Shown: positions 20,301 through 36,785 of the stretch, one piece after another | How the letters are laid out: each line of letters opens with the position of its first letter | How positions within the stretch are numbered: position 1 is the stretch's first letter | IMG/VR virus record: IMGVR_UViG_3300042507_004375 | Coordinates: 1 to 38,759 of that record | Direction: 5' to 3' (one strand) | DNA length: 38,759 bases | Source of the DNA: a virus | Notes under the pieces: model-generated | Told to the model about the DNA's origin: nothing | Database searches by the model: none | What the model saw: the letters and a program-made list of their open reading frames with translations, nothing else | Position numbers and translations under genes: made by a program

Positions 20301-23300
20301 GCAGGTACTTCAGGTATAAGCTCAACTTCAGGTACTTCTGGTTCAAGTGGCACCTCAGGAGATAACGGAAACTCAGGTACAAGTGCTATTTCTGGTACTT
20401 CAGGTACCTCAGGTACATCAGGATCAAATGGAGTTAATGGAGAAAATGGAACTTCAGCAATCTCAGGTACTTCAGGTACAAATGGTTCAAGCGGTACCTC
20501 AGGAGTAGCAGGTGATTCAGGTCTATCCAGAACATCAGGTACTTCAGGAACTAATGGTTCATCAGGTACCTCAGGTAATGAAGGAACATCAGGTGTTAGT
20601 GCATTATCAGGAACATCAGGTACAAATGGCTCAAACGGAATTGATGGTATAGCAGGCACTTCAGGTGTTAGTGCAACATCTGGAACAAATGGTTCAAGCG
20701 GTACCTCAGGAGTAGCAGGTGATTCAGGTCTATCCAGAACATCAGGTACTTCAGGCACCTCAGGTTCATCTGGCTCAAATGGAGTCACAGGAGATGATGG
20801 TATAAGTGCAGCCTCAGGTACAAGTGGTACTTCAGGTTCAGCAGGTACAAATGGAGAGGCAGGTATAAATGGAACAAGTGCAATTTCAGGAACATCAGGA
20901 ACATCAGGTACTTCAGGTTCAAACGGAAATATAGGAGAAGATGGAACTTCAGCTCTATCTGGTACTAGTGGATCTTCAGGTTCAAATGGTACCTCAGGAA
21001 ATAATGGTGCCTCAGGAACAAGTGCTATCTCAGGTACTTCAGGTACAAATGGTTCAAGCGGTACCTCAGGAGTAGCAGGTGATTCAGGTCTATCCAGAAC
21101 ATCAGGTACTTCAGGCACCTCAGGTTCAGCCGGTACAAATGGTATTGATGGAGTTGCTGGTACCTCAGGTGTTAGTGCATTATCAGGAACATCAGGTACA
21201 AATGGTTCAAATGGTATTGATGGTGTAGCAGGTACCTCAGGTATAAGCTCAACTTCAGGTACAAATGGTTCCTCAGGTACAAATGGTATTAATGGTGTAG
21301 CAGGAACATCAGGTGTTAGCGCGGTCTCAGGCTCATCAGGTTCAAATGGCACAAATGGAATAAATGGAAATACAGGTACTTCAGGTGTAAGTGCAGTCTC
21401 AGGTACCTCAGGTACAAATGGTTCAAATGGTATTGATGGAGTTGCTGGTACTTCAGGTGTTAGCGCGGTCTCAGGTACCTCAGGTTCTAATGGTACAAAC
21501 GGAATCAATGGAGTCGAAGGCACATCAGGTGTAAGTGCTACCTCAGGTACTTCAGGTTCAAATGGTACCTCAGGTAACGCAGGAGCTTCAGGAGCTAGTG
21601 CTACTTCAGGTACTTCAGGAACAAATGGATCAAGTGGTACTGCTGGAGCAGCTGGAGCCTCAGGTGCAAGTGCGGCCTCAGGTACCTCAGGTACTAATGG
21701 CTCTTCAGGTACAAATGGAGTTAATGGTAATGCTGGAACTTCAGGTGTAAGCGCGGTCTCAGGCACAAATGGTACCTCAGGCACAAATGGTGTTAATGGT
21801 AACGCTGGAGCATCTGGTGTAAGCGCAACTTCGGGTACTAATGGTACAAATGGTACAACTGGAGCAACAGGTAATGCTGGAGCTTCAGGTGAATCAAGAA
21901 CCTCAGGTACAAATGGTACTTCAGGCACAAATGGCACTTCAGGAGTTAACGGAGCATCAGGTGTAAGCGCAGTCTCAGGTACAAACGGTACATCAGGTAC
22001 AAATGGAGTTAATGGTAATGCAGGAACTTCAGGTGTAAGCGCAGTCTCAGGTACAAACGGTACATCAGGTACAAATGGAGTTAATGGTAACGCTGGAGCA
22101 TCTGGTGTTAGCGCAGTTTCAGGTACCTCAGGTACAAATGGTACAAACGGAGCTAATGGTAATGCAGGTGCAAATGGTGCAAGTGCGGTATCAGGTACCT
22201 CAGGTACTTCAGGTACAGCAGGAAATAATGGTAATGCAGGAGGATCAGGTGTAAGTGCTACCTCAGGTACAAATGGTACTTCAGGTACTACAGGAGCTAA
22301 TGGTAATGCAGGAGGATCAGGTGTAAGTGCAGTCTCAGGCACATCAGGTACAAATGGTACAAATGGTGCTAATGGAGCAGCAGGTGCAAATGGTGCAAGT
22401 GCAGCCTCAGGTACCTCAGGTACTTCAGGTACAGCAGGTACAAATGGTTTATCTGTAAATGGTACTGCAGGTATAAGTGGAAATACATTTAATAATCAAC
22501 CAGGATTCCCAGTACTTACATGTAATACTACTCAAATTCAAAGTACAAGCTTAATGTTCTTTGATGCTGGAAATAGTAGAGTATGTACCCCTGGAGATAT
22601 GTTAATACATGGTGTATTTGTTGGTAAAGGTCCAGGAGCTATTGATACAAATACTAGAGTAGGGCCTGGAAATAATTTCAGCGGTAATACAACAGGTTAT
22701 AGTAATGTAGCTATTGGAAGTAATGCTATGAAAGATAATACTACTGGAGCAAATAACGTAGCTGTTGGTAAGGATGCTTTACTAGATAATACTACAGGAG
22801 CTAGTAACATAGGAATAGGACGTAATGCCTTATATAATACAAATTCCTCTAATAATATAGGTATTGGAACTAACTCTTCATTTAATAATTCAAGTGGTAA
22901 TAAAAATGTAGCAATTGGATCTTCAGCATTATATTCTAACACAACAGCTGCTACTAGTACAGCAATTGGTTATAGAGCGCAGTTATATTATAATCATTCT
23001 AATATTATAGCTGTTGGATCTGATTCTTTAGCATCAGCAGCTAACCACACAGTTTGGGGAAATTCAGCAAATGATGTTTGTAATTGTGTTTATGTAGCAT
23101 GGTCAGAAGTTTCTGATTGTAGAGATAAAACAGAAATAGAAACATTATCTTCTGATTTAGGATTAAATTTAATTCGTAAACTAAGACCAGTATCCTTTAA
23201 AAAGGATCATAGAGATACATATGTAAGAGAATGTGGTTTTAAATATGGAGAAAAAGATGGCACATTAGCTGGAGAAAAAGAACATTATGGTTTAATAGCT

Positions 23301-23474
23301 CAAGAATTAAACCAAGCATTAACAGAATTAGACACTAGATTTGATGCTTTAGGACATGATCCTAAAAAAGACGCATATCGTGTGACTTATACAGAATTAA
23401 TAGCTCCTGTAATTAAATCAATTCAAGAATTAGACGAAAGATTAAAAATTGTTGAAACTAGATTGGAAATCTAA
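17370..23474 (+). CDS. Giant tail fibre 1: Gly-X-Y repeats, YadA-like head and S74 chaperone (2034 aa)
   Basis: Probable trimeric fibre. Domains in order: a beta-rich N-terminal region (1-120) likely to attach to the tail; about 1580 residues of Gly-X-Y triplets dominated by GTS, GSS, GSN, GEN and GNA (121-1703), with no Pro or Lys seen; a junction domain (NGTAGISG...NQPGF...TTQIQS, about 1700-1745); repeats of the NNVAIGxxAL type (about 1770-1870) as in trimeric autotransporter heads; and a C-terminal peptidase S74 intramolecular chaperone with VSDCRDKTEI, YGLIAQEL and VTYTELIAPVIKSIQELD. Cleavage is expected before Ser1915, releasing 120 residues after trimerisation. One in-frame ORF spans everything. 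The Ser/Thr-rich stalk is a candidate acceptor for the modification enzymes encoded next to it. Confidence 0.93.
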   Translation: MAQVRFLDQVPVGVYNIDPTSGGGTIDIYQNGTLVSSSVPFINFSGSVELTSFDTNGITVYITSSGGSGTGFPFSGSAVITGSLVISGSTQPIVLQTLPVQSGPYVVTYNPETGIIGYVNSTSGTSGLSGSSGTAGVSGTSGTSGSNGSSGNTGISGTSAESGTSGSSGSAGSSGNIGANGTSAASGTSGTSGSSGSNGVTGENGTSAISGTSGSSGSSGTNGITGENGTSAISGTSGSSGSAGSSGNIGASGESAVSGTSGSSGSTGSNGVSGGNGTSGTSGESGSSGSNGESGISGQSATSGTSGSSGSNGETGISGESAISGTSGSSGSAGSSGNIGTNGNSAVSGTSGSSGSAGSNGVAGEDGASATSGTSGSSGSNGTSGDIGINGASASSGTSGSSGSNGSNGVAGENGTSGTSGTSGSSGSNGEAGISGESAISGTSGSSGSAGSNGAVGANGASASSGTSGSSGSNGSNGIVGEDGISAISGTSGSSGSSGSNGSNGVAGENGTSGTSGESGSTGSNGTSGENGASGISGTSGTSGTSGSTGSNGVAGGDGDSAISGTSGSSGSTGSNGIAGENGTSGLSGTSGSNGSNGVSGGNGTSGTSGESGSSGSIGTSGESGISGSSGISGTSGSTGSSGSSGANGTSGISGLSGSSGSSGTSGEDGISGTSGTSGSSGSNGTSGDDGISGTSAISGTSGTSGSNGNSGQNGTSGVSTTSGTSGSSGSIGTSGDASTSGESTTSGTSGSSGSIGTSGNAGESGQSNTSGTSGTSGSIGTSGESATSGTSGTSGSSGTLGSSGSSSESGTSGSSGTSGSSGESGTSGSSGTSGLSGESGTSGSSGTSGSSGESGTSGSSGLSGESRTSGSSGTSGSSGSSGDNGISGISATSGTSGSSGSSGDNGISGISATSGTSGTSGSNGINGDAGTSGISATSGTSGSNGTSGNDGISGTSAISGTSGTSGSNGTSGNNGNAGTSGISSTSGTSGSSGTSGDNGNSGTSAISGTSGTSGTSGSNGVNGENGTSAISGTSGTNGSSGTSGVAGDSGLSRTSGTSGTNGSSGTSGNEGTSGVSALSGTSGTNGSNGIDGIAGTSGVSATSGTNGSSGTSGVAGDSGLSRTSGTSGTSGSSGSNGVTGDDGISAASGTSGTSGSAGTNGEAGINGTSAISGTSGTSGTSGSNGNIGEDGTSALSGTSGSSGSNGTSGNNGASGTSAISGTSGTNGSSGTSGVAGDSGLSRTSGTSGTSGSAGTNGIDGVAGTSGVSALSGTSGTNGSNGIDGVAGTSGISSTSGTNGSSGTNGINGVAGTSGVSAVSGSSGSNGTNGINGNTGTSGVSAVSGTSGTNGSNGIDGVAGTSGVSAVSGTSGSNGTNGINGVEGTSGVSATSGTSGSNGTSGNAGASGASATSGTSGTNGSSGTAGAAGASGASAASGTSGTNGSSGTNGVNGNAGTSGVSAVSGTNGTSGTNGVNGNAGASGVSATSGTNGTNGTTGATGNAGASGESRTSGTNGTSGTNGTSGVNGASGVSAVSGTNGTSGTNGVNGNAGTSGVSAVSGTNGTSGTNGVNGNAGASGVSAVSGTSGTNGTNGANGNAGANGASAVSGTSGTSGTAGNNGNAGGSGVSATSGTNGTSGTTGANGNAGGSGVSAVSGTSGTNGTNGANGAAGANGASAASGTSGTSGTAGTNGLSVNGTAGISGNTFNNQPGFPVLTCNTTQIQSTSLMFFDAGNSRVCTPGDMLIHGVFVGKGPGAIDTNTRVGPGNNFSGNTTGYSNVAIGSNAMKDNTTGANNVAVGKDALLDNTTGASNIGIGRNALYNTNSSNNIGIGTNSSFNNSSGNKNVAIGSSALYSNTTAATSTAIGYRAQLYYNHSNIIAVGSDSLASAANHTVWGNSANDVCNCVYVAWSEVSDCRDKTEIETLSSDLGLNLIRKLRPVSFKKDHRDTYVRECGFKYGEKDGTLAGEKEHYGLIAQELNQALTELDTRFDALGHDPKKDAYRVTYTELIAPVIKSIQELDERLKIVETRLEI
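20478..20548 (+). repeat. 71-nt exact repeat, copy 1 (fibre 1)
   Basis: Identical to 20685-20755 and 21045-21115. Encodes TNGSSGTSGVAGDSG followed by LSRTSGTSG. Confidence 0.85.
20685..20768 (+). repeat. 71/84-nt exact repeat, copy 2 (fibre 1)
   Basis: Its first 71 nt match all copies; the full 84 nt match copy 3. Confidence 0.85.
21045..21128 (+). repeat. 71/84-nt exact repeat, copy 3 (fibre 1)
   Basis: Identical over 84 nt to 20685-20768, 360 nt apart, an exact multiple of three. Confidence 0.85.
21660..21720 (+). repeat. 61-nt block shared exactly with fibre 2
   Basis: Identical at every base to 28815-28875 in the second fibre gene, in direct orientation and the same reading register. 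Confidence 0.88.
23112..23474 (+). other. Peptidase S74 self-cleaving chaperone domain (part of fibre 1)
   Basis: Encodes residues 1915-2034, starting SDCRDK, with the family landmarks GLIAQEL and YTELIAPVIKSIQELD and a terminal coiled coil. In endosialidase-type fibres this domain directs trimer folding and is then removed by cleavage before the Ser. Confidence 0.9.
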
Positions 23475-23926: not shown

Positions 23927-24748
23927 ATGATAGAAAAAGTATTTTATAATAGTTCTATGCCGAGGGCTGGGTCTACTTTAATACAAAATATTTTAGGACA
24001 AAACCCAGAAATATATGCTACTCCAACATCTGGTTTATTTGAGATGATGGCTACCTCTAGAACTATATTTACAGATAGTTTAGAAATTAAAGCTCAAAAT
24101 GAGCAAGAAATGTTAAATGGCTTTAAAGGCTTCCTTAAAGGAGGTCTTTATAATTTTTACAATAATATAACTGATAAACCTTATGTAATAGATAAATCAA
24201 GAGGATGGAATTCAGAATGGGAATTTATTAATGCTTTTGATCCTAATCCTAAAATTATTTGTATGATTAGAGATATAAGAGCAGTATATTCTTCTTTAGA
24301 AAAAAAATTTAGAAAACATCCACTACAAGATCATCATTTAGCTAATTGGGTTAATTTAACAGGTACTACAACTGACAAAAGAATACAATTCTGGTTTACA
24401 AACCCACCTATTGGTCCTTCTATGGATAAAATATACCAAACATTAATTCAGGGAATACATAAAAATATTTTATTTATTAAGTTTGAGGAACTTTGTTCTG
24501 ATCCTGATATACAATTAAAAAAAATATATGAATATCTTGAATTACCATTCTATCAACATGATTTTAAAAATATTCAACAAATAACACATGAGGATGATAA
24601 ATGGTATGGTATTTTTGGAGATCATATTATTAGGCAAGAACTTAAACCTGTAGAAGATGATTATTTAGAGGTATTAGGACCTAATGCTTGTAGACTGATT
24701 GTAGAAAATTATGGTTGGTTTTTTAATGATTTTGGTTATAAAATTTAA
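23927..24748 (+). CDS. PAPS-dependent sulfotransferase
   Basis: Transfers sulfate from PAPS to a hydroxyl of a carbohydrate or peptide. The 5'-phosphosulfate loop SMPRAGSTLIQNIL is at residues 10-23 (PRAGST 12-17) and the 3'-phosphate-binding motif MIRDIRAVYSSL at 113-124, including the Arg and Ser expected. FIKFEELCSDPDIQLKKIYEYLE (about 185-207) is the usual C-terminal block. The 273-residue length is normal for a soluble bacterial or phage enzyme. It opens a tight five-gene cluster with an APS-kinase-like gene. The acceptor is unknown; flanking Ser/Thr-rich fibres and glycosyltransferases make a fibre glycan a plausible target. Confidence 0.9.
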   Translation: MIEKVFYNSSMPRAGSTLIQNILGQNPEIYATPTSGLFEMMATSRTIFTDSLEIKAQNEQEMLNGFKGFLKGGLYNFYNNITDKPYVIDKSRGWNSEWEFINAFDPNPKIICMIRDIRAVYSSLEKKFRKHPLQDHHLANWVNLTGTTTDKRIQFWFTNPPIGPSMDKIYQTLIQGIHKNILFIKFEELCSDPDIQLKKIYEYLELPFYQHDFKNIQQITHEDDKWYGIFGDHIIRQELKPVEDDYLEVLGPNACRLIVENYGWFFNDFGYKI

Positions 24749-24750
24749 TT

Positions 24751-25719
24751 ATGAAAGTAGGTTATAAATCTAAATTTGATACAGAAATTATTGAAGAAGA
24801 ATTAGATCAAGAAATCATTTCATTTGATAAGAAAACTAAATATTTAGTTTGGCATATTGAAGGAGGATTAGGGAAAAACATAGCAGCTACTGCTCTTTTA
24901 AAATCTATTGATGAAACATATCCTGACAGAAAAATAATTATTGTAGCCTCATATCCTGAGATTTTTATAAATAATCCATCTGTTTATAGAGTATATAAAG
25001 TTGGTATGACTAGTTATTTTTATGATGACTATATTAAAGATAAAGACACACTTATATTCAGGCATGAACCTTATTTTCAAACATCACATATTCTTAAACA
25101 AAAACATTTAATTGAAAATTGGGCAGATTTATTGGGGGTTAAATATAAAGGTCATTTTCCTGAAATACATTTTAATCTAGTTCAAAAACAATTACCTCTT
25201 AGTTGGCTTAGAGATAAACCAATATTATTATTACAAACAAATGGAGGTCCATTTTATAATCAAAAACTAAGTTATTCTTGGACTAGAGATATACCATATA
25301 ATATAGCAACTCAAATTGTTGAAGAGTTTAAAAAAGATTATCATATTATTCAAATAATGAGACAAGGTTCTATTCCATTAGAGAATGCTGAAGTTATTGA
25401 TTATCAAATGAGTAATATGGAATTATTTGGATTAGTAGGGGTATCTGATAAACGAGTATTAATAGACTCTAGCATCCAACATATAGCATCTGCTTTAAAT
25501 TTATCATCAACTGTTTTATGGGTAGGAACTTCACCTAAAAATTTTGGATATACTATTCATTCTAACATAGTATCAAAACCACCAAAAGGTAATACTAAAT
25601 TAATAGATGCTTATTTATTTGATTATTCATTTGAAGGTGTACCATATGAATGTCCATATATGGATGTTAATGAAATGTTTGATATTAATGAAATTATAAA
25701 CTCAATTAAAAACACATGA
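24751..25719 (+). CDS. GT9/heptosyltransferase-like glycosyltransferase
   Basis: GT-B fold enzyme resembling ADP-heptose:LPS heptosyltransferases. The N-terminal motif EGGLGKNIAATALLKSIDET (about 37-56) with YPDRKIIIVASYPEIFINNP parallels the GDxxxxTPxLRAL region. The C-terminal domain has LIDSSIQHIASALNLSSTVL and WVGTSP, like the sugar-nucleotide site of GT9 enzymes. It begins 2 nt after the sulfotransferase and overlaps the kinase by 4 nt. A second, TibC-like member of the same superfamily lies at 35337. Donor and acceptor are unknown. Confidence 0.8.
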   Translation: MKVGYKSKFDTEIIEEELDQEIISFDKKTKYLVWHIEGGLGKNIAATALLKSIDETYPDRKIIIVASYPEIFINNPSVYRVYKVGMTSYFYDDYIKDKDTLIFRHEPYFQTSHILKQKHLIENWADLLGVKYKGHFPEIHFNLVQKQLPLSWLRDKPILLLQTNGGPFYNQKLSYSWTRDIPYNIATQIVEEFKKDYHIIQIMRQGSIPLENAEVIDYQMSNMELFGLVGVSDKRVLIDSSIQHIASALNLSSTVLWVGTSPKNFGYTIHSNIVSKPPKGNTKLIDAYLFDYSFEGVPYECPYMDVNEMFDINEIINSIKNT

Positions 25720-26159
25720 TATATTGGCTCACAGGACAACCAGGACATGGTAAAACAGTTTTATCTAAAATGTTAAAACATTACATTGAATTAAATGAAA
25801 ATACAACAGTATTTAATATTGATGGAGATGATTTACGCGAAATTTTAACTAATAAAGATTATTCTAAACAAGGTAGAGAAAATAACATAAAAACAGCACA
25901 TTCTATTGCAAGATATTTGGCAAATCAAGGATTTGATGTTATCGTATCGTTAGTATCACCTTATAGAGAATTAAGAGAAGAATTTAAATCTTTAGGAAAT
26001 ATAACTGAAATATATGTTCATACAACTGAAATTAGAGGCAGAGAACAATTTCATGTAGAAGATTATGAACCACCATTATCTAATTTTATAGATATTGATA
26101 CTACTAACCAAACACCAGGACAAAGCTTAAGTACTATTTTAAATTATATTCATGGATAA
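25716..26159 (+). CDS. Adenylylsulfate (APS) kinase-like protein, compact
   Basis: Probably phosphorylates APS to PAPS, the sulfotransferase donor. Walker A is GQPGHGKT (7-14). DGDDLRE (37-42), the RENNIKTAHSIARYL helix (54-68) and LVSPYRELREEF (79-90) match the CysC family closely, and VEDYEPP (114-120) stands for its usual DDPYEPP. The protein is only 147 residues against about 200; the segment between the VHTT strand and the YEPP motif lacks most of the usual KARxGxIxxFTG lid. Another small-molecule kinase role cannot be excluded. It overlaps both neighbours (4 and 8 nt). Confidence 0.82.
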   Translation: MIYWLTGQPGHGKTVLSKMLKHYIELNENTTVFNIDGDDLREILTNKDYSKQGRENNIKTAHSIARYLANQGFDVIVSLVSPYRELREEFKSLGNITEIYVHTTEIRGREQFHVEDYEPPLSNFIDIDTTNQTPGQSLSTILNYIHG

Positions 26160-26562
26160 TAAAATATGGGATAAAAAATATCATGTAGAATCATCAATGG
26201 TTAATGATGAAGATGGATTCGCAATGTTCTTAGGTAGATGGCAACCTCTACATGACGGGCATAAAAATTTATTCTCACAAGCATTAAATTCAGATAAAAA
26301 TATCTGTATTATGATACGTGATACACCAGTAAGTGAAAAAAATCCATTTACCTCTGAACAAGTAAAACAAAATATTGAAGAATATTATAGTAAGGGTGTA
26401 AAAAATGGAAATGTAGTTGTTATGGTTGTACCAAATATTACTTCAATCAATTTTGGAAGAGGAGTAGGATATGATATTATAGAACATATCCCACCTACAG
26501 AAATTGCTGACATATCAGCAACTAAAATTAGAGAACAAATGAAACAAGATGGTAGACTATAA
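26152..26562 (+). CDS. HxGH nucleotidyltransferase (cytidylyl/adenylyltransferase-like)
   Basis: Rossmann-like nucleotidyltransferase: FLGRWQPLHDGHKNLF (26-41) contains the HxGH signature, SEKNPFTSEQ (61-70) is the NMN adenylyltransferase-like loop, and ISATKIRE (121-128) is the conserved ISxTxxR segment. Such proteins transfer AMP or CMP to phosphorylated substrates. The overlap with the APS kinase-like gene and nearness to a sulfotransferase suggest a shared pathway, perhaps sulfate or sugar activation. No canonical ATP sulfurylase is in the window, so a substitute role is conceivable but unproven. The 136-residue length is a single compact domain. Confidence 0.85.
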   Translation: MDNKIWDKKYHVESSMVNDEDGFAMFLGRWQPLHDGHKNLFSQALNSDKNICIMIRDTPVSEKNPFTSEQVKQNIEEYYSKGVKNGNVVVMVVPNITSINFGRGVGYDIIEHIPPTEIADISATKIREQMKQDGRL

Positions 26563-26813: not shown

Positions 26814-29800
26814 ATGGCTGAAAATAGAAGTAGTGGAGTTAATAGGTTAGATAGTCCAGATAAAGGTAGAGGATTTTTTAACAACTCTTTAGGTTTTAAT
26901 AAAAATAATCTACCTGTAGTTACTCAAGGATGGGAAAATTATGTATTAACAATAGATGATACAGGTCTTGTATCTTTAGTTCAAGTATCATCAACAAGCA
27001 CATCAGGAACAGCAGGTACTTCTGGTACAAGTGGTACATCAGGCTCAAACGGTACATCAGGTTCAAGTGGTGCTTCCGGTTCAAGTGGTATCTCAGGTTC
27101 AAGAGGTACATCAGGTATAACTGGTTCATCAGGTACATCAGGTAGCTCATCAGGTACTTCAGGCTCAAGTGGCTCTTCAGGTACAGCAGGTGCAGACGGT
27201 CAGTCAGGTTTAAGTGCTACTTCAGGTACCTCAGGCACTTCAGGATCCTCAGGTACCTCAGGTCTAACAGGTTCATCAGGAATATCTAGAACCTCAGGCA
27301 GTTCAGGCTCAAGTGGTACATCAGGTTCCTCAGGTACAGCAGGTGCAGATGGTCAATCAGGATTAAGTGCTACCTCAGGTACATCTGGTTCCTCAGGCTC
27401 TTCAGGTACATCAGGTCTAACAGGTTCTTCTGGATTATCTAGAACCTCAGGTACATCAGGCTCATCAGGTTCCTCAGGTACAGCAGGTGCAGATGGTCAA
27501 TCTGGCCTTAGCACTACATCTGGCACCTCAGGTTCATCAGGTTCAAGTGGTACCTCAGGTTTGGTAGGTTCATCAGGATTATCTAGAACCTCAGGTACTT
27601 CAGGCACCTCAGGATCAAATGGATCTTCAGGTACAGCAGGTGCAGATGGTCAATCAGGTTTAAGTGCTACATCTGGCACCTCAGGTTCATCAGGTTCAAG
27701 TGGTACCTCAGGTTTGGTAGGTTCATCAGGTTTATCTAGAACTTCAGGTTCAAGTGGTTCATCAGGTTCCTCAGGTACAGCAGGTGCAGACGGACAATCA
27801 GGTTTAAGTGCTACCTCAGGTACATCTGGTTCTTCTGGTTCTTCAGGTACCTCAGGTTTAGTAGGTTCTTCAGGACAGTCTAGAACCTCAGGTACATCAG
27901 GCTCAAGTGGCTCATCAGGTACAGCAGGTGCAGATGGTCAATCTGGACTAAGCTCAACTTCAGGCACTTCAGGATCAAGTGGCTCTTCAGGCACATCAGG
28001 TCTAGTTGGTTCATCAGGAATATCTAGAACTTCAGGTACATCTGGTACAAATGGCTCATCGGGTACAGCAGGAGCAGATGGTCAATCTGGATTAAGCGCT
28101 ACCTCAGGTACATCAGGTACTTCAGGTTCAAGTGGAACTTCAGGTTTAGTAGGTTCTTCTGGTTTATCTAGAACATCTGGTGCTTCAGGTACATCAGGTA
28201 CTTCTGGTACTAATGGTTCAAGTGGTACAGCAGGTGCAGACGGTCAGTCAGGTTTAAGTGCTACCTCAGGTACAAGTGGAACTTCAGGTTCAAGTGGTAC
28301 ATCAGGACTAGTAGGTTCCTCAGGACTATCTAGAACATCAGGTACCTCAGGTACCTCAGGTTCTTCAGGTACATCAGGAACAAATGGTTCTTCTGGTACT
28401 TCAGGAAATGCTGGAGTTTCAGGAGTAAGCTCAACTTCAGGCACTTCAGGTACCTCAGGATCATCAGGTACATCAGGTCTAGCTAGAAGTTCAGGTACTT
28501 CAGGTAGTTCAGGTACAAGTGGTACATCAGGAGATATAGGTTCCTCAGGTGCCAGTGCAGCTTCAGGAACCTCAGGTACAAATGGCTCAAATGGTACCTC
28601 AGGTAATGCAGGTGTCTCAGGTGTAAGTTCTACCTCAGGTACAAGTGGTACATCAGGTTCTTCAGGTACATCAGGTTTAGCTAGAACTTCAGGTACCTCA
28701 GGTACCTCAGGTTCTTCAGGTACATCTGGTGATATTGGGACAAGTGGTACAAGTACAGTCTCAGGTACCTCAGGTACCTCAGGTTCAAGTGGTACATCAG
28801 GAGATATAGGCACTTCAGGTGCAAGTGCGGCCTCAGGTACCTCAGGTACTAATGGCTCTTCAGGTACAAATGGAGCAATAGGTACTTCAGGAGCCAGTGC
28901 CACCTCAGGTACTTCAGGATCCTCAGGTACAAATGGTAATGCAGGTGTCTCAGGTGTTAGTTCAACCTCAGGTACTTCAGGTACCTCAGGTTCTTCAGGT
29001 ACATCTGGTCTATCCCAAAGTTCAGGCACTTCAGGCACCTCAGGTTCTTCAGGTACATCTGGTGATGCAGGAGCTTCAGGTTTATCTAGAACCTCAGGTA
29101 CTTCAGGCACTTCAGGATCAAATGGTACCTCAGGTAACGCTGGAGCCTCAGGTGCAAGTGCCACCTCAGGTACCTCAGGTACTAATGGATCTTCAGGTAC
29201 AAATGGAGCAATAGGTACTTCAGGAACAAGTGCAGCCTCAGGTACCTCAGGTACAAACGGATCCTCAGGCACAAATGGTAACGCAGGTGTTTCAGGTGTA
29301 AGCTCTACCTCAGGTACAAGTGGTACATCAGGCTCAAGTGGCACTTCAGGTTTAGCTAGAAGTTCAGGTTCCTCAAGTGCTTCAGGTACCTCAGGTACCT
29401 CAGGTTCAGCTGGTACTTCAGGTATATCATTTAATGGTACAAGTGGAATATCAGGTGGTGTATTTACAAACCAACCAGACTTTTTAGTACGAACTACAGG
29501 TACTACTACAATACAAAGTGTACCATTCCTATTTGCAGATATAACTAATAGTAGGTTGGGTATTGGTACTACTACCCCGAACGCTCTTTTAAGTCTAGGA
29601 ACATCAGTCCAAGATAATAAAATTTATCTTTACGATGGAACCTCAGATAAATACGGTCTAGGAATACGCAGTAATCAACTTATAATTTATAGTGGCGCAG
29701 CTGCGGCTTCTACTGGGGGAATTCTTTTTGGCACCTATGACGGTACAACGTTTGCCGAACTAATGAGAATAAGGAAAGATGGCAACGTAGGTATTGGAAT

Positions 29801-31313
29801 AACATCCCCTGGCTCCCGTCTAGTAGTCCAAGGTTCAGGTGCAACATCAGCAACCTCTGCTCTAAATATAACCAACTCAACTCCAACAAGTCTATTGTTT
29901 GTAAGAGATGATAGCAACGTCGGTATTGGGACGACGGCGCCTGAAGCACTGCTACATTTAAGTAAATCATCGGCAGGTGGAGAAGGGGCATTTTTGTTTA
30001 TTGATAACCCCGCAGCATCTACGTTAGACAATAAAGCTGGAATTAGATTTGCGACAAACGCTGGAGCTTCATTCTCAGGGTATGGTTCATTCATTGAAGC
30101 TATAAATACGAATGCTGGCAACGGTGCTGAATCATTAGCCTTTGGAACTTGGAATGGGGCAGCAAGAGGAGAGCGTATGCGTATTGATGCATCAGGCAAC
30201 GTCGGCATTGGTACTACGAGTCCAAGTTCTTTGCTTGATGTTGTTACAAACACGGTTGGCCTTGCTACAAATTCTATAAAATTAGGAAACGCAGCTGGAG
30301 ACTCTAGAAGTGTTGGTCAATTTCTTGGCGACCAAGCGGTTTATAATCCAGCAGCGGCAACAAACACTACAAATGGTTCAGTTGCTGGAATTAAGTTCAA
30401 TTGGTATAGCGAAAATTGGATGTTGTCTGCTACACGTGGTGGGGGCGCTGATATAGAAGGATTAGTAATTAGTAGAAATGGTACTGAAAGATTAGTTATT
30501 AGCTCAACAGGTAATGTAGGCATTGGCACGACGGCGCCATTCTCAACTGCAAAATTACAAGTTAAGACTGCCACGGATATAAACGTAGCAATACAAACTG
30601 GTACAACAAATACTTCCGGAATTAAAATAAATGCATTTAACGATGCTGGTAATGCAAATATACCTTTAGAATTAAACGGTTCTATTTTAAGTCTAAAAAC
30701 GGGTGAGGCAGAACGGATGCGTATTGATGCATCAGGCAACGTCGGCATTGGCACGACAAGTCCAGGCTCTCGCCTAGTAGTCCAAGGCTCAGGCACAACA
30801 TCAGCAACATCAGCTCTCAATGTAACCAACTCAACCCCAACAAGCCTATTGTTTGTAAGAGATGATGGAAACGTAGGTATTGGAACTTCTTCTCCTTTAT
30901 ACCCTGTAGTGATAGCAAATAGAGGTCCAGCAGGAACTCCTCAACGTTCTCTAGCAATAGGTAACACAGCAACTAATGGTACATTTATGTATCTTGGATC
31001 TTCAGCATCTACATCAGGATATAATTTAATACAATCAGTAACTACTGAGGGTACAGCTTACGGTAATTTAGTACTACAACCAGAAGCTGGTGATGTAGGT
31101 ATAGCGACAACATCTCCACAAGCAAAACTTCATGTAGCTGGAACAGTAAGAATAGATAGTACATCCTCTACCCCCAATAGTTTAGGAGGTAGTGTAGATA
31201 CATTATTAACAAATACAGCCACAGATAATATAGCTATGGGGGTTCCTGATACTTGGCTTCAAATTAATATAAATGGTGTAGATTATGCTATCCCAGTATA
31301 TCAACCTGCTTAA
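26814..31313 (+). CDS. Giant tail fibre 2: Gly-X-Y repeats with NVGIGTT-type tip (1499 aa)
   Basis: Second large fibre. A short N-terminal region (1-60, with GWENYVLTIDDTGLVSLVQV) leads into about 820 residues of Gly-X-Y repeats (61-881), ordered into eight copies of a 48-51-residue unit starting GTAGADGQSG and then related units. A junction (NGTSGISGGVFTNQPDF...TTTIQS) is homologous to that of fibre 1. The tip consists of beta-modules with (N/D)VGIGTTSPxxxL motifs about seven times. There is no S74 chaperone; the protein ends DTWLQININGVDYAIPVYQPA. Part of the tip (about 29560-30890) is richer in GC and in rare codons (CGC, GCG, GGC) and contains a 122-nt duplication, suggesting recombinational import. 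It is probably an alternative receptor-binding fibre. Confidence 0.9.
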   Translation: MAENRSSGVNRLDSPDKGRGFFNNSLGFNKNNLPVVTQGWENYVLTIDDTGLVSLVQVSSTSTSGTAGTSGTSGTSGSNGTSGSSGASGSSGISGSRGTSGITGSSGTSGSSSGTSGSSGSSGTAGADGQSGLSATSGTSGTSGSSGTSGLTGSSGISRTSGSSGSSGTSGSSGTAGADGQSGLSATSGTSGSSGSSGTSGLTGSSGLSRTSGTSGSSGSSGTAGADGQSGLSTTSGTSGSSGSSGTSGLVGSSGLSRTSGTSGTSGSNGSSGTAGADGQSGLSATSGTSGSSGSSGTSGLVGSSGLSRTSGSSGSSGSSGTAGADGQSGLSATSGTSGSSGSSGTSGLVGSSGQSRTSGTSGSSGSSGTAGADGQSGLSSTSGTSGSSGSSGTSGLVGSSGISRTSGTSGTNGSSGTAGADGQSGLSATSGTSGTSGSSGTSGLVGSSGLSRTSGASGTSGTSGTNGSSGTAGADGQSGLSATSGTSGTSGSSGTSGLVGSSGLSRTSGTSGTSGSSGTSGTNGSSGTSGNAGVSGVSSTSGTSGTSGSSGTSGLARSSGTSGSSGTSGTSGDIGSSGASAASGTSGTNGSNGTSGNAGVSGVSSTSGTSGTSGSSGTSGLARTSGTSGTSGSSGTSGDIGTSGTSTVSGTSGTSGSSGTSGDIGTSGASAASGTSGTNGSSGTNGAIGTSGASATSGTSGSSGTNGNAGVSGVSSTSGTSGTSGSSGTSGLSQSSGTSGTSGSSGTSGDAGASGLSRTSGTSGTSGSNGTSGNAGASGASATSGTSGTNGSSGTNGAIGTSGTSAASGTSGTNGSSGTNGNAGVSGVSSTSGTSGTSGSSGTSGLARSSGSSSASGTSGTSGSAGTSGISFNGTSGISGGVFTNQPDFLVRTTGTTTIQSVPFLFADITNSRLGIGTTTPNALLSLGTSVQDNKIYLYDGTSDKYGLGIRSNQLIIYSGAAAASTGGILFGTYDGTTFAELMRIRKDGNVGIGITSPGSRLVVQGSGATSATSALNITNSTPTSLLFVRDDSNVGIGTTAPEALLHLSKSSAGGEGAFLFIDNPAASTLDNKAGIRFATNAGASFSGYGSFIEAINTNAGNGAESLAFGTWNGAARGERMRIDASGNVGIGTTSPSSLLDVVTNTVGLATNSIKLGNAAGDSRSVGQFLGDQAVYNPAAATNTTNGSVAGIKFNWYSENWMLSATRGGGADIEGLVISRNGTERLVISSTGNVGIGTTAPFSTAKLQVKTATDINVAIQTGTTNTSGIKINAFNDAGNANIPLELNGSILSLKTGEAERMRIDASGNVGIGTTSPGSRLVVQGSGTTSATSALNVTNSTPTSLLFVRDDGNVGIGTSSPLYPVVIANRGPAGTPQRSLAIGNTATNGTFMYLGSSASTSGYNLIQSVTTEGTAYGNLVLQPEAGDVGIATTSPQAKLHVAGTVRIDSTSSTPNSLGGSVDTLLTNTATDNIAMGVPDTWLQININGVDYAIPVYQPA
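26994..29456 (+). repeat. Collagen-like triplet repeat region of fibre 2
   Basis: About 820 codons of Gly-X-Y with alternating Gly-to-Ala (GLSATSG) and Gly-to-Arg (GLSRTSG) substitutions, typically 24 residues apart, giving a 48-residue supra-repeat. No Pro or Lys seen. Confidence 0.92.
28815..28875 (+). repeat. 61-nt block shared exactly with fibre 1
   Basis: Direct repeat of 21660-21720 at 7155 bp distance; the end of fibre 1 and the whole sulfation cluster lie between. Confidence 0.88.
29808..29929 (+). repeat. 122-nt tip duplication, copy A (fibre 2)
   Basis: Near-identical to 30762-30883, same length, differing mainly at third codon positions; encodes PGSRLVVQGSG to the next VGIG motif. 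Confidence 0.8.
30762..30883 (+). repeat. 122-nt tip duplication, copy B (fibre 2)
   Basis: Partner of 29808-29929. A second shared stretch, CGTATTGATGCATCAGGCAA and onward, precedes it at 30719 and recurs at 30179. Confidence 0.8.
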
Positions 31314-31722: not shown

Positions 31723-33717
31723 ATGAAAAAACTGTTATATATAGCCCCTCACCTATCAACTGGGGGATTACCACAATATCTAACTAAAAAAATAGAACTA
31801 CTTAAAGATAAATTTGAAATTTATCTTGTAGAATGGGTTGATTGTACAGGTGGTGTTTTAGTAGTTACTAGAAATAAAATTGTAAAGCTTATCGACAGTG
31901 ATAAGTTTTTTACATTAGGAGACAACAAACAAGAACTAATTAACATTATATCTAAAATAAAACCAGATATAATTCATTTAGAAGAAATACCAGAATTTTT
32001 TATGGATTCTGATATTACTAAACAAATATATAATCCTAATAGAAAATATGTTATTGTAGAAACATCTCATGACTCATCATATGATGTATCAAATAAACAG
32101 TTCTTTCCAGACAAATTTATGTTTGTCTCACAATGGCAGATAGATCAATATAAGAGCATTGATGTACCTAGTGTATTAATCGAATATCCTATTGAATATA
32201 TAGAACGTCCCGACCGTACTGAGGTACTACGTAATTTACACTTAGATCCAACAAAAAAACACATTTTACACGTTGGGTTATACACATCAAGAAAGAATCA
32301 AAAAGAATTCTTTGAATATGCTAAAGCATTTCCTGAGTATGAGTTTCATAGTTTAGGTAATAGAGCAGACAACTTTAAATGGTATTGGGAACCATTAGAA
32401 CAAAACACTCCTCCTAATTTAACATGGTGGAATGAAAGAACAGATGTAGATGCTTTTTATCAAGCAATGGATTTGTTTTTGTTTACTTCTAGAGGAACAA
32501 ACAATGATAAAGAAACAATGCCTTTAGTAATCCGAGAGGCAATATCATATCAGATACCAACCTTAATTTACAATCTAGAGGTATATCAGAATTATTTTGA
32601 TAAGTTTGAAAAAGTAAATTATCTTGATTTTGATAGTTTTAGAACAAATTGTGATATAATCAAAAATACTCTAGAACAAAATAATAATATAAATCTTGAT
32701 GAAGAAGCAATTGTTATATCAACATACCCTATATCAAGTTCTACAATACAAACAACTAAAGAATGTATTGAATCTTTAAGACAAACTGGTAGAAAAATTA
32801 TATTAACATCTCATATTCCTATTCCTGAAGAATTACAAAAAATTGTAGATTATTGTTTATATGATTCTAATAATATTTTAACTAAACATACATTCTATAA
32901 ACACACATGGGTTGATTATGATACATGGAGAGTTGATTTAAATTTAACCGGAGAAGATAATGATGTATATCATGGACCTGCTGTTTATACAAATTATTAT
33001 AATGCAGCTGTATTAGCTAATAATTTAGGTATTAAAAAATTGTACTTTTTAAATTATGATTACTATTTAAAAAATTCTTTATATATAGATAATATATCTT
33101 TAATTTTAAATAATAAAAAAGCATATGTTTGTTTAAAAAAAGAACAAGAAGGTAATACAGTTACTACTTTCTTTTTAGCATCTGATCCACAGTTCTATTT
33201 AAATCATTTTCCATTAATTAAAACATCTAAAGATTATGATGATTTAATGGTAAAATGGGGTAGTGAATCTAATGGTTTGGAAAATTTAGCATATCATACA
33301 TTTAATCAAGATAAAGATAAAATATATTGGGAAGAAGAATCTAAATTCAATAATTTAATAACTGAAAATTTTGAACATAAAGATTACTCTAGAATCGAAT
33401 ATTTTTCAGTAATCCCTATAAAAGATAATCTAAATCAATTTGCTGTATTTTTACATGTAAATAATTTTCAAGATAGTAGAGTTATTAATATAACAATAAC
33501 TGAAAATGATAATCTTATATCTGATGATAATATAAATTTTACCAATAAAATGTCATGGTTTAAACAAATATTTTCAAATATAGAAAATATATATGAAATA
33601 AAATATAAATCATTTGATGAAATAAATGGTTCTTTAATTGAAACAAAAGTTATTAAAATAGATAAAGATTATTTTGAAAATAAAATTAATCAAAACGGTT
33701 TACTTATATTAAAATGA
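31723..33717 (+). CDS. Two-domain glycosyltransferase (GT4-like plus second domain, 664 aa)
   Basis: The N-terminal half (1-320) is GT-B/GT4-like: LLYIAPHLSTGGLPQYLTKK at the start, KHILHVGLYTSRKNQKEFFE (179-198) and ETMPLVIREAISYQIPTLIY (264-283) at the donor site. The C-terminal half (from about 326) begins EEAIVISTYPISSSTIQTTK and continues ILTSHIPIPEELQKIVDYCL, YHGPAVYTNYYNAAVLANN and LYFLNYDYYL. This resembles domains attached to other phage and bacterial glycosyltransferases and may be a second, GT-A-like transferase. It therefore could add two sugars in sequence. Start of the second modification cluster; its stop overlaps the next ATG (ATGA). Confidence 0.85.
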   Translation: MKKLLYIAPHLSTGGLPQYLTKKIELLKDKFEIYLVEWVDCTGGVLVVTRNKIVKLIDSDKFFTLGDNKQELINIISKIKPDIIHLEEIPEFFMDSDITKQIYNPNRKYVIVETSHDSSYDVSNKQFFPDKFMFVSQWQIDQYKSIDVPSVLIEYPIEYIERPDRTEVLRNLHLDPTKKHILHVGLYTSRKNQKEFFEYAKAFPEYEFHSLGNRADNFKWYWEPLEQNTPPNLTWWNERTDVDAFYQAMDLFLFTSRGTNNDKETMPLVIREAISYQIPTLIYNLEVYQNYFDKFEKVNYLDFDSFRTNCDIIKNTLEQNNNINLDEEAIVISTYPISSSTIQTTKECIESLRQTGRKIILTSHIPIPEELQKIVDYCLYDSNNILTKHTFYKHTWVDYDTWRVDLNLTGEDNDVYHGPAVYTNYYNAAVLANNLGIKKLYFLNYDYYLKNSLYIDNISLILNNKKAYVCLKKEQEGNTVTTFFLASDPQFYLNHFPLIKTSKDYDDLMVKWGSESNGLENLAYHTFNQDKDKIYWEEESKFNNLITENFEHKDYSRIEYFSVIPIKDNLNQFAVFLHVNNFQDSRVINITITENDNLISDDNINFTNKMSWFKQIFSNIENIYEIKYKSFDEINGSLIETKVIKIDKDYFENKINQNGLLILK

Positions 33718-34664
33718 AAATAGCACAAATACATCCAGGTTGTGGGATATCAGTTCCTCCTCCATCTTGGGGAGCAATAGAAAAAATAGTATGGGAATTT
33801 ATGGTGAATCTTAAAAAATTAGGTCATCAAGTAGATTTAAAATGGGCTAACGAAGTTAAACCAGGAGAATATGATTTAGTAATGGTTCATGTTGCTAATT
33901 TAGCATTAGAATTAGCTGATAAAGGAATACCATATATTTTTCAACATCATGACCATCATGCTTTTCATTATGGAAAAACATCTGATGTATATAAACAAAA
34001 TAAAGAGGCTATGGAAAAATCAGTATTTTCCTTAGTTCCAGCAAGATATTTAGTTAATTATTTTGAGTTACCAAATGTTTATTATTTTTCACATGGTATA
34101 AACAATGAAGAATTTTATCCTATAAATAAATCTAAACCTACTGAACCTAAATTACTTATGATAGCTAACAATGGATTAGCAGGTGATCCTGGTTTTGATA
34201 GAAAAGGATTTACATATGGAATAGCATTAGCTCAAGCTCGTAATCTACCTATTACAATAGCAGGACCATCAAATAATAAACATTTCTTTAATAATCATTT
34301 ATGGGTGTTGGCTTATCCAAAACTTAATATTATATTTGATTTACCAAATGAACAACTATTAAATCTATACCATCAACATGATATATTTATACATCCAACA
34401 ATGTTAGAGGCAGGTCATCCTAATTTAACAATGTTAGAGGCAGTAGCTTCTGGTTTACCATTAATTGCAGATTGGGAACATGAAACTATATTTCATGGGG
34501 CTTGGAGGTCACCTAGAGATGTCTTTGAAATGTCTAGAGGATTAGATGATATAATGAATAATTGGGAATTATATAGAACAAAATGTTCAGAAACAGCTAA
34601 AGAATTATCATGGTACAATCGTTCAAAAGAATTAATAAATTTATATAATGAACATGCGAACTAA
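33714..34664 (+). CDS. Glycosyltransferase family 4-like protein (316 aa)
   Basis: GT-B retaining transferase. N-terminal IHPGCGISVPPPSWGAIEKI corresponds to the GGxExxV acceptor loop; the C-terminal domain has ANNGLAGDPGFDRKGFTYGI and the donor-binding HPTMLEAGHPNLTMLEAVASG (E232 and E242, an E-x7-E-like motif). Length is a little short for GT4 (usually 350-400). It overlaps both neighbours by 4 and 17 nt, so is translationally coupled. Sugar specificity cannot be read from sequence. Confidence 0.88.
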   Translation: MKIAQIHPGCGISVPPPSWGAIEKIVWEFMVNLKKLGHQVDLKWANEVKPGEYDLVMVHVANLALELADKGIPYIFQHHDHHAFHYGKTSDVYKQNKEAMEKSVFSLVPARYLVNYFELPNVYYFSHGINNEEFYPINKSKPTEPKLLMIANNGLAGDPGFDRKGFTYGIALAQARNLPITIAGPSNNKHFFNNHLWVLAYPKLNIIFDLPNEQLLNLYHQHDIFIHPTMLEAGHPNLTMLEAVASGLPLIADWEHETIFHGAWRSPRDVFEMSRGLDDIMNNWELYRTKCSETAKELSWYNRSKELINLYNEHAN

Positions 34665-35340
34665 ATTTTATACAAAAAATAACCAACTAATTGACATATC
34701 AACATGGGATATATCAGGTGATATAAATGATATAGGAAATAGATATGGTTGGGAAGGATCAATGGCTTATGGTAATTTAATACATGATGAATTAAATATC
34801 CATGGACCTGGAATGCAATATGGTGATATTTATTTAGATTTAGGGGCTAACATTGGTATGTCTGCTATTAGAGCTGAGTCCAAAGGATGTTCTAAAATAT
34901 ATTGTATCGAACCAGATCCTGGAGTGTTTGAGGCTTTAAATAAAAATAAAAGTTATAATTGGATCGTAGATAATATAGCTATAGGTACAGAACAAGGGTA
35001 TATTGATATTTCTAAATGGCCTGATTGGTGGGATGTACAACCAATTCAATGTATTACATTAGATCAATTTTTTGCGAAACATAATCTTAGTAAAGTAGAT
35101 TATATGAAGTGTGATATTGAAGGTCATGAAAAATATGTTTTTGAAAATGTAAGTCAAATAACATGGGATAAAATACAAAAAATATTTTTTGAATATCATG
35201 AAGACACTCAAAATTTAAATGAAGAACAAAGAAATGAAGAACGATTAAAATTTGTTAAATTTTTTGCTGATAAAGGTTTTAATAATCATTTTGTTTCTCT
35301 TGGATATTATCAAAGTTTTATATATTATTGGAAATCATGA
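34648..35340 (+). CDS. FkbM-family SAM methyltransferase
   Basis: O-methyltransferase domain of the FkbM type, often modifying sugars of surface glycans. SAM motif I is YLDLGANIGMSAIRAES (62-78), followed by IYCIEPDPGVFEAL (84-97), the family block CITLDQFF and VDYMKCDIEGHEKYVFENV, and a final YYQSFIYYWK. The 230-residue length is complete for the family. ATG 34648 is chosen; ATG 34654 is an in-frame alternative. It lies between two glycosyltransferase genes with overlaps on both sides, so it probably caps or modifies the glycan they build. Confidence 0.92.
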   Translation: MNMRTKFYTKNNQLIDISTWDISGDINDIGNRYGWEGSMAYGNLIHDELNIHGPGMQYGDIYLDLGANIGMSAIRAESKGCSKIYCIEPDPGVFEALNKNKSYNWIVDNIAIGTEQGYIDISKWPDWWDVQPIQCITLDQFFAKHNLSKVDYMKCDIEGHEKYVFENVSQITWDKIQKIFFEYHEDTQNLNEEQRNEERLKFVKFFADKGFNNHFVSLGYYQSFIYYWKS

Positions 35341-36533
35341 AAAACATATTAATTAACGAATACAACAATACCCCAATCCTAAATTTAGAGAATAAAAAAC
35401 CACAAAATAAATTTATAATTAATTTTATAGATGGTGCTTTCTTAGAAATATTAGGTCCTGTAAATCTAGAATATAAAGCTAAATTTATAGATCGAAAAAC
35501 TAAAAAAGTACTCCATGAAACTACACTTAGTAATAACATGTGGACTCGTACTAATATTAAATATTGTATTAATTGGCGAGTAGAAGTTTATCAAAACAAT
35601 AATTTAGTGTATGAACATGATTGGGATCCAACAGGTAAAAGAGTCTATATTGCTTTAGATTCAGGAGCCTTAGGTGATACATTAGCTTGGTTTCCATATG
35701 TAGAAGAATTTAGAAAAACATTTATGTGTGATGTTGTATGTTCTACATTCCATAATGATTGGTTTAAAGAAAACTATCCAAATATTGAATTTATAAAACC
35801 AGGTACAGTAGCGAATGATTTATATGCTATGTATCCAATTGGATGGTTTTATGATAATAAAAAAGTAGTATATGATAAAGTACCAATTGATTTTAAAAAA
35901 TATCCATTACAACAAACAGCTAGTGAAATTTTAGGATTAAGCTATAGTGAAACAAAACCAAATCTAGTTACACCTAATATAAAAACAGATATTGAAGGAG
36001 AATATGTAGTAATAGCACCTCATGCTTCAGCTCATGCTAAGTACTGGATGTATGAAAAAGGATGGCAATCTATAATAGACTATTTAAATGAAAAAGGATA
36101 TAAAGTAGTTATGTTAACTGGAGAGCCTTTAAATGATGAATGGCATGATTCAAAATTAGGAGGTACACTAACTGGAGTAATAAATAAAACTGGATATCAT
36201 ATAGATATTAAAGACCGAATGATTGATATTAGAGATGCTAAAGCATTTATAGGAGTAGGTAGTGGATTAAGTTGGTTATCATGGTCATTAAACACCCCTA
36301 CAATTTTAATATCTGGTTTTAGTTATCCATATACTGAAATGCAAGACTGTGAACGTATATTCCCTGAAAATAAATCAGTATGTACTGGATGTTTTAACAG
36401 ACATTGGCTAAACCCAGGAGATTGGGAATGGTGTCCTGATCATAAAGATACTCCAAGACAATTTGAATGTACTAAAACAATCACCCCAGATCAAATAATT
36501 AAATCAATAAATAAAATTTTAAAAATCAAATAA
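35337..36533 (+). CDS. TibC/BAHT-like protein O-heptosyltransferase
   Basis: Closely resembles the bacterial autotransporter heptosyltransferase family (TibC, AAH), which transfers heptose from ADP-heptose to Ser of repeat-rich adhesins. Evidence: the 398-residue length (TibC about 406); the GT9-like N-terminal site VYIALDSGALGDTLAWFPYV (103-122); donor-domain segments IAPHASAHAKYWM and FIGVGSGLSWLSWSLNTPTI; and the diagnostic C-terminal Cys4 motif CTGCFNRHWLNPGDWEWCPD with a fourth Cys in QFEC (C349, C352, C366, C378), the iron-binding element of TibC. Start is ATG 35337 (ATGA overlap with the methyltransferase stop); the TTG at 35328 is less likely. Near the Ser/Thr-rich fibres, these are its likeliest acceptors. 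Confidence 0.87.
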   Translation: MKNILINEYNNTPILNLENKKPQNKFIINFIDGAFLEILGPVNLEYKAKFIDRKTKKVLHETTLSNNMWTRTNIKYCINWRVEVYQNNNLVYEHDWDPTGKRVYIALDSGALGDTLAWFPYVEEFRKTFMCDVVCSTFHNDWFKENYPNIEFIKPGTVANDLYAMYPIGWFYDNKKVVYDKVPIDFKKYPLQQTASEILGLSYSETKPNLVTPNIKTDIEGEYVVIAPHASAHAKYWMYEKGWQSIIDYLNEKGYKVVMLTGEPLNDEWHDSKLGGTLTGVINKTGYHIDIKDRMIDIRDAKAFIGVGSGLSWLSWSLNTPTILISGFSYPYTEMQDCERIFPENKSVCTGCFNRHWLNPGDWEWCPDHKDTPRQFECTKTITPDQIIKSINKILKIK

Positions 36534-36536
36534 AAC

Positions 36537-36785
36537 ATGGAAAAATTAACAACAGAAGAATTACAAAAATTGCAAAATCTTCAAGATAAAGGTCAAGCTT
36601 TAATTAATGAATTAGGTCAAATTGAAGTAGCTAAAATTTCACTTGAAATTAGACATGAAAAAGCAAAACAAACATTAGTTGAACTTCAACAAGAAGAAAT
36701 AGACTATGGAAAACAAATGAGTGAAAAGTATGGTCCTATTTCAGTTAATCCAGAGACTGGAGAGATTACAAAAGTTGAGGCCTAA
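36537..36785 (+). CDS. Small coiled-coil protein (82 aa)
   Basis: Residues 5-65 are a continuous amphipathic helix with heptad spacing of Leu and Ile (EELQKLQNLQDKGQALINEL, QTLVELQQEEIDYGKQMSEK), followed by a short tail with VNPETGEITKVEA. It starts 3 nt after the heptosyltransferase stop. Such small coiled-coil proteins are common beside tail genes in T4-like phages; no function is assigned. It may be an adaptor or chaperone. Confidence 0.78.
   Translation: MEKLTTEELQKLQNLQDKGQALINELGQIEVAKISLEIRHEKAKQTLVELQQEEIDYGKQMSEKYGPISVNPETGEITKVEA

Follow-up and report, generated by a model that had tools for sequence, protein, structure and literature searches.

A phage-encoded TibC-like enzyme proposed to glycosylate the collagen-like tail fibres beside which it lies

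Why would a bacteriophage carry, close to its tail fibre genes, an enzyme resembling the O-heptosyltransferases that modify bacterial autotransporter adhesins? The gene in question lies in an IMG/VR record of 38,759 bases (referred to below, at its full length, as the window), which derives from an aquatic phage and contains genes for a large terminase, portal, head protease, major head protein, PhoH and tail; a search of all 38,759 bases revealed no tRNA. A 99-kb contig (L004/L085) encodes an enzyme and a head protein identical to those of the window, and since a tail sheath gene directly follows the cassette on that contig, the window phage is contractile-tailed. The features of the window relevant to this question are listed below.

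17370..23474, + strand: collagen-like fibre 1, candidate substrate (2034 aa; PF01391, E 1.4e-170; C-terminal Peptidase_S74, PF13884)
23927..24748, + strand: sulfotransferase-like protein between the fibres (PF13469, 1.8e-16)
25716..26159, + strand: adenylyl-sulfate-kinase-like protein (PF01583, 2e-17; under the NCBIfam cut-offs)
26152..26562, + strand: nucleotidyltransferase-like protein (PF01467, 3.1e-06; weak NMN adenylyltransferase similarity)
26814..31313, + strand: collagen-like fibre 2, candidate substrate (1499 aa; PF01391, E 1.9e-83)
31723..33717, + strand: GT4-type glycosyltransferase GT664, conserved partner with an extended C-terminal region (PF00534)
33714..34664, + strand: GT4-type glycosyltransferase GT316, conserved partner (PF00534)
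34648..35340, + strand: FkbM-family methyltransferase, in some relatives only (TIGR01444, 76 bits)
35337..36533, + strand: TibC-like O-glycosyltransferase (398 aa; TIGR04414, 298.7 bits; PDB 4rap, 6e-51; Foldseek 4rap, E 1.9e-30)
36537..36785, + strand: 82-aa protein (p82), no Pfam match, in a conserved place after the enzyme in most relatives

The open reading frame at 35337-36533 is a real gene. It starts with an ATG at 35337 that overlaps the stop codon of the methyltransferase gene by four bases (ATGA), its opposite strand contains many stops, and dN/dS between paired phage copies is 0.04-0.22. The product matched the profile of the autotransporter O-heptosyltransferases Aah/TibC (TIGR04414) over model positions 15-374 of 374, well above the curated cut-off of 200 bits, and a phmmer search of the PDB retrieved TibC with the E value given above and WaaC with just 0.003. 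An AlphaFold2 model built from 34 phage homologues (mean pLDDT 84) was then compared to known structures by Foldseek; the top 21 PDB matches were all TibC chains (TM 0.76-0.83), followed by WaaC/GT9 structures at E ~1e-8. The preliminary description of this DNA had proposed a GT9-like enzyme of the TibC/AAH type and a structure search against TibC as its check; profile, PDB match and retained residues bear out the former, and the latter recovered the TibC fold. Taken together, the profile, the PDB sequence search, the fold search and the conservation of residues support the window enzyme as a true member of the TibC family. At loci L038, L039 and L040, about 220 additional C-terminal residues bring the TibC-like protein to 623 aa.

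The residues used by TibC are Asp110, Thr226, Lys230, Arg286 and Trp305, together with four cysteines holding an iron (PMC4358343). The window enzyme displays D114, S231, K235, R294, W313 and C349/C352/C366/C378, unchanged in all 34 phage copies, with D114, K235, R294 and W313 corresponding to Asp110, Lys230, Arg286 and Trp305 of TibC. The four cysteines, located exactly where the preliminary description had placed them, match C339/C342/C358/C370 of TibC and are invariant in 112 of 112 family rows, over which the donor-binding Lys and Trp are also constant. In the AlphaFold2 model the region of this Cys4 finger (residues 350-377) has a pLDDT below 50, and both metal and oligomer lie outside the model. 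Two positions set the group of the window enzyme apart: position 308, on which the stereoselectivity of TibC/AAH depends, is Gly in 53 of the 58 rows of this collagen-linked group, Ser in the other group and Pro in TibC, and the adenine-contacting Arg286 is missing in 15 of the 58, although the window enzyme retains it as R294. The Gly at 308 and the loss of the arginine point to an altered active site in this group.

The nearer of the two fibre genes ends 4.0 kb upstream of the enzyme gene, not 5 kb as initially estimated. Its product contains 211 in-register G-x-y triplets (shuffle mean 1.7), and that of the more distant fibre gene (17370-23474) contains 452 (shuffle mean 5.6). GTS and GSS are the most frequent triplets and proline is absent from the runs, so that the pattern reads Gly-(Thr/Ser)-Ser. 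The GTS/GSS runs noted earlier were thus found, but the stalks are not merely Ser/Thr-rich, being collagen-like according to PF01391, and a triple helix is predicted for them; the Peptidase_S74 chaperone domain at the C-terminus of fibre 1 fits a trimeric fibre. An 891-aa open frame runs antisense to the fibre repeats (19667-22342, minus strand) and is probably a by-product of their composition.

The same gene order recurs among relatives: a collagen-like fibre, the 664-aa GT4, the 316-aa GT4, sometimes FkbM, the TibC-like enzyme and p82. The GT4 pair was present in all 57 phage loci with 3 kb of upstream sequence. A collagen-like ORF was located within ~7 kb of the enzyme in 47 of 99 non-redundant phage loci, and the remaining 52 are truncated; none of the 99 had sufficient flank and yet lacked such an ORF. 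In some relatives, for example L050 and L063, the collagen gene is downstream on the opposite strand. In the isolated Microcystis phage Mel-JY01, GT4, methyltransferase and TibC domains are joined in a single protein near a collagen-like ORF, and the megaphage LR756501 encodes a GT4-TibC fusion, also with a collagen-like ORF near it. These fusions suggest that the enzymes belong to one pathway, and the overlapping reading frames within the cassette suggest a single operon. In LR756504 and in the L250 MAG contig the enzyme was found with no collagen-like ORF near it.

Relatives of the enzyme were detected in at least 584 IMG/VR stretches (scan with alignment), and a scan of bacterial genomes yielded 75 loci, two of which (L236 and L244) are by gene content phage contigs within MAGs. 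The bacteria nearest to the phage enzymes are Methylobacter, Methylomicrobium, Methylococcaceae, a Polaromonas MAG and several gammaproteobacterial MAGs. In these (L237-L252) the enzyme mostly adjoins small (GTS)n or (GSS)n repeat proteins, many of which have starts that by eye are signal-peptide-like or lipoprotein-like, and it stands there alone, without the GT4 pair. The distant bacterial members (Acetobacteraceae, Lentisphaeria, Bradyrhizobium, Polynucleobacter) have no (GTS)n/(GSS)n neighbours, and AIDA stalk/autotransporter domains were found beside all three members of the distant group that were tested. A tree separated the autotransporter-linked group from the phage and bacterial (GTS)n/(GSS)n-linked group with an SH-aLRT of 99; it is a quick tree, built from uncharacterised members of the family, in which several long branches are unsure in place. 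The collagen-linked state changes three times on it, compared to a shuffled mean of 21.7, after the resetting of two labels, and five times with the raw labels. The two labels, both collagen labels within the autotransporter-linked group, were rejected by judgement at L274, where the long repeat protein resembles its AIDA-type neighbours, and at L258, where the ORF is distant and weak.

The co-variation of enzyme and stalk composition was examined in 151 genomes of the Methylobacter family of methanotrophs, nine of which contain an enzyme of the collagen-linked type (matches of at least 218 bits; four matches of ~320 bits in three genomes were taken for the other enzyme group and left out). 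A collagen match was present in eight of the nine and in 34 of the 142 others (p 1.5e-4, a value that overstates independence because the genomes belong to one family). Loci picked by Pfam in the enzyme-free methanotroph genomes may favour proline-rich repeats; the genomes were therefore searched with a DNA pattern of five G-[ST]-[ST] triplets, and the listed matches were read by eye for serine runs. Runs of five G-[ST]-Ser triplets were found in six of the nine genomes with the enzyme and in none of the 142 without it (p 5.6e-9, again overstated among kin genomes). Not counted as serine runs were the pattern matches in G105, G126, G136 and G173 (in-frame TGA), in G123 (a non-S/T reading) and in G094, G182 and G188 (Thr only at Y). 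Of the genomes with the enzyme, G125 and G107 have no G-[ST]-Ser runs, and the run of G094 shows just Thr at Y. The collagen-like loci of enzyme-free genomes consist mainly of GPK, GDQ, GAQ and GAT triplets, in which Y is seldom Ser.

Among phages chosen by their head protein, the eight that encode the enzyme all show many collagen matches, and those of their stalks that were inspected belong to the GTS type. Only contigs spanning the slot between p317 and the tail sheath were counted as enzyme-free, plus G027, as most enzyme-free contigs stop inside the collagen gene. Seven such phages span the slot; they carry non-collagen fibres there, and neither GT4 partner was matched in them, and G027 has a collagen of GAQ/GAT/GPQ/GPT triplets with no Ser at Y. 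As judged from the slot and from the G027 collagen, GTS stalks were hence absent from all eight related enzyme-free phages, though these lineages are related and the cases are not independent events. The contigs of G017-G020, G028, G029, G031, G034 and G036 break off within the collagen-like gene or shortly behind it, which makes the absence of downstream genes from them an assembly effect, and G014, which stops short of the slot, was dropped. In G007, five collagen matches lie elsewhere, outside the slot.

The gene neighbourhood, the GTS/GSS-linked enzyme group in both phages and bacteria, and the co-variation of enzyme and stalk support the fibre as the substrate of the enzyme, as the preliminary description had predicted; its further predictions, heptose and a glycan on the virion, we infer with more reserve. 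We consider it quite probable that the phage cassette O-glycosylates its own collagen-like fibre stalk, with the TibC-like enzyme initiating on serine. In the infected cell, the enzyme would take a sugar off a nucleotide donor, of which ADP-heptose is the likeliest, and attach it to serines of the Gly-(Thr/Ser)-Ser repeats before or during fibre assembly. The two adjoining GT4 enzymes would probably extend the glycan, and the FkbM methyltransferase may cap it, as in the window phage may the sulfotransferase and the adenylyl-sulfate-kinase-like protein. The glycan would be likely to stabilise a proline-free triple-helical stalk, to shield it, or both, with protease resistance as a possible benefit. 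Arguing against this reading are the altered positions in the active site of the group, the two enzyme loci with no collagen-like ORF nearby, the enzyme-bearing genomes G125, G107 and G094, and the low confidence of the modelled finger. Family and fold, active-site and Cys4 residues, the location of the cassette beside the stalk gene and the co-variation were computed; from these we infer which reaction takes place, with which sugar and on which acceptor residue, what the partners do and what the benefit is.

The sugar itself deserves consideration. Heptose is the likely candidate, because the window enzyme keeps the donor residues and because LR756504 encodes a true GmhA (L413:6084-6653; 307 bits, cut-off 265) ~27 kb from its TibC-like gene. 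An enzyme that glycosylates the stalk with a sugar other than heptose is a doubtful alternative, though one with arguments of its own: the Gly at position 308, the arginine lost from part of the group, and the lack of convincing ADP-heptose synthesis genes in most of the phages tested, where a search of 21 records produced, apart from the GmhA of LR756504, only partial, sub-cut-off HldE-like matches in three. Against it, the window enzyme and the phage enzymes closely related to it conserve D114, K235, R294 and W313, LR756504 has that GmhA, and the donor may come from the hosts.

Two other explanations, both improbable in our view, would dispense with the glycosylated stalk. The cassette might modify LPS or other surface glycans of the host, in superinfection exclusion, and leave the virion unmodified; this is the customary reading of phage glycosyltransferases near fibre genes (PMC7029224), and LPS synthesis commonly involves enzymes of the GT4 and GT9 types. 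However, the known TibC/AAH members work on protein serines, the enzyme stands alone beside a GTS protein in related bacteria, its presence follows stalk composition, and the cassette sits among tail genes, ahead of the sheath. We give equally little credence to a scenario in which enzyme and fibre merely travel in one inherited module and the serine-rich repeats arose by repeat expansion with no link to the enzyme. Low-complexity repeats are indeed easily expanded, the phage loci share common ancestry, so that their counts are non-independent, and two enzyme loci have no collagen-like ORF nearby; but Mel-JY01, a megaphage, loci with the opposite-strand arrangement and several bacterial groups all show the link again, and collagens without the enzyme use different triplets.

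A glycosylated collagen-like stalk would have partial precedents. The window enzyme shares with TibC/AAH (BAHT; TIGR04414) the fold, the catalytic Asp, the donor-binding Lys/Arg/Trp, the Cys4 motif and the link to a long, repeated, serine-rich protein. It differs in being phage-encoded and, in phages, part of a multi-glycosyltransferase cassette, in that its neighbour is a collagen-like stalk, the place taken for TibC/AAH by an AIDA-type strand-loop-strand autotransporter, and in the Gly of its group at the stereoselectivity position, where TibC/AAH have Pro or Ser. BclA of Bacillus is an O-glycosylated bacterial collagen-like protein with GPT-rich repeats, modified by other enzymes with other sugars; there, too, the hydroxyl residues of G-x-y triplets are the likely acceptors, the triplets here being GTS/GSS without proline. 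The capsid and tail tube of mycobacteriophages are glycosylated (Freeman et al. 2023, as cited in PMC12619734), again with glycans on phage structural proteins, which there are attached to the C-termini of the subunits, compared to the collagen-like stalk and TibC-family enzyme proposed here.

The suggestion that a virion modification of this kind is not an established system hence holds in part: as virion glycosylation of phages is already known (PMC12619734), the novelty lies in the class of enzyme and in a target that is collagen-like. Phage glycosyltransferases are usually interpreted as modifiers of LPS or DNA (PMC7029224, PMC10202952), and in the literature searched, which covered few subscription papers, we found no account that places a TibC-like enzyme in a phage or together with a collagen-like protein. 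The results would extend the TibC family beyond autotransporter adhesins to collagen-like proteins, in phages as well as in bacteria, and the proposed phage-encoded glycosylation system for collagen-like tail fibres would give a reason for serine-rich, proline-free stalks, with a bearing on phage-host recognition, fibre stability and virion visibility. As a tentative generalization, somewhat less probable than its converse, a distinct TibC branch common to phages and bacteria may O-glycosylate Gly-(Thr/Ser)-Ser repeats and so stabilise triple helices without proline or hydroxyproline, which would give collagen-like fibres a second kind of chemistry, the phage cassette elaborating, methylating and sometimes sulfating the glycan.

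Sulfation is a possibility because the sulfotransferase, the adenylyl-sulfate-kinase-like protein and the nucleotidyltransferase sit between the fibres, and the genes at 23927-26562 may form a sulfation module, in which the adenylyl-sulfate-kinase-like protein might supply PAPS and the sulfotransferase might sulfate the glycan. The same interval encodes a 322-aa protein without a Pfam match, whose motifs appear GT9-like by eye. The sulfotransferase and the 322-aa protein also adjoin the collagen gene of G027, a phage without the TibC-like enzyme.
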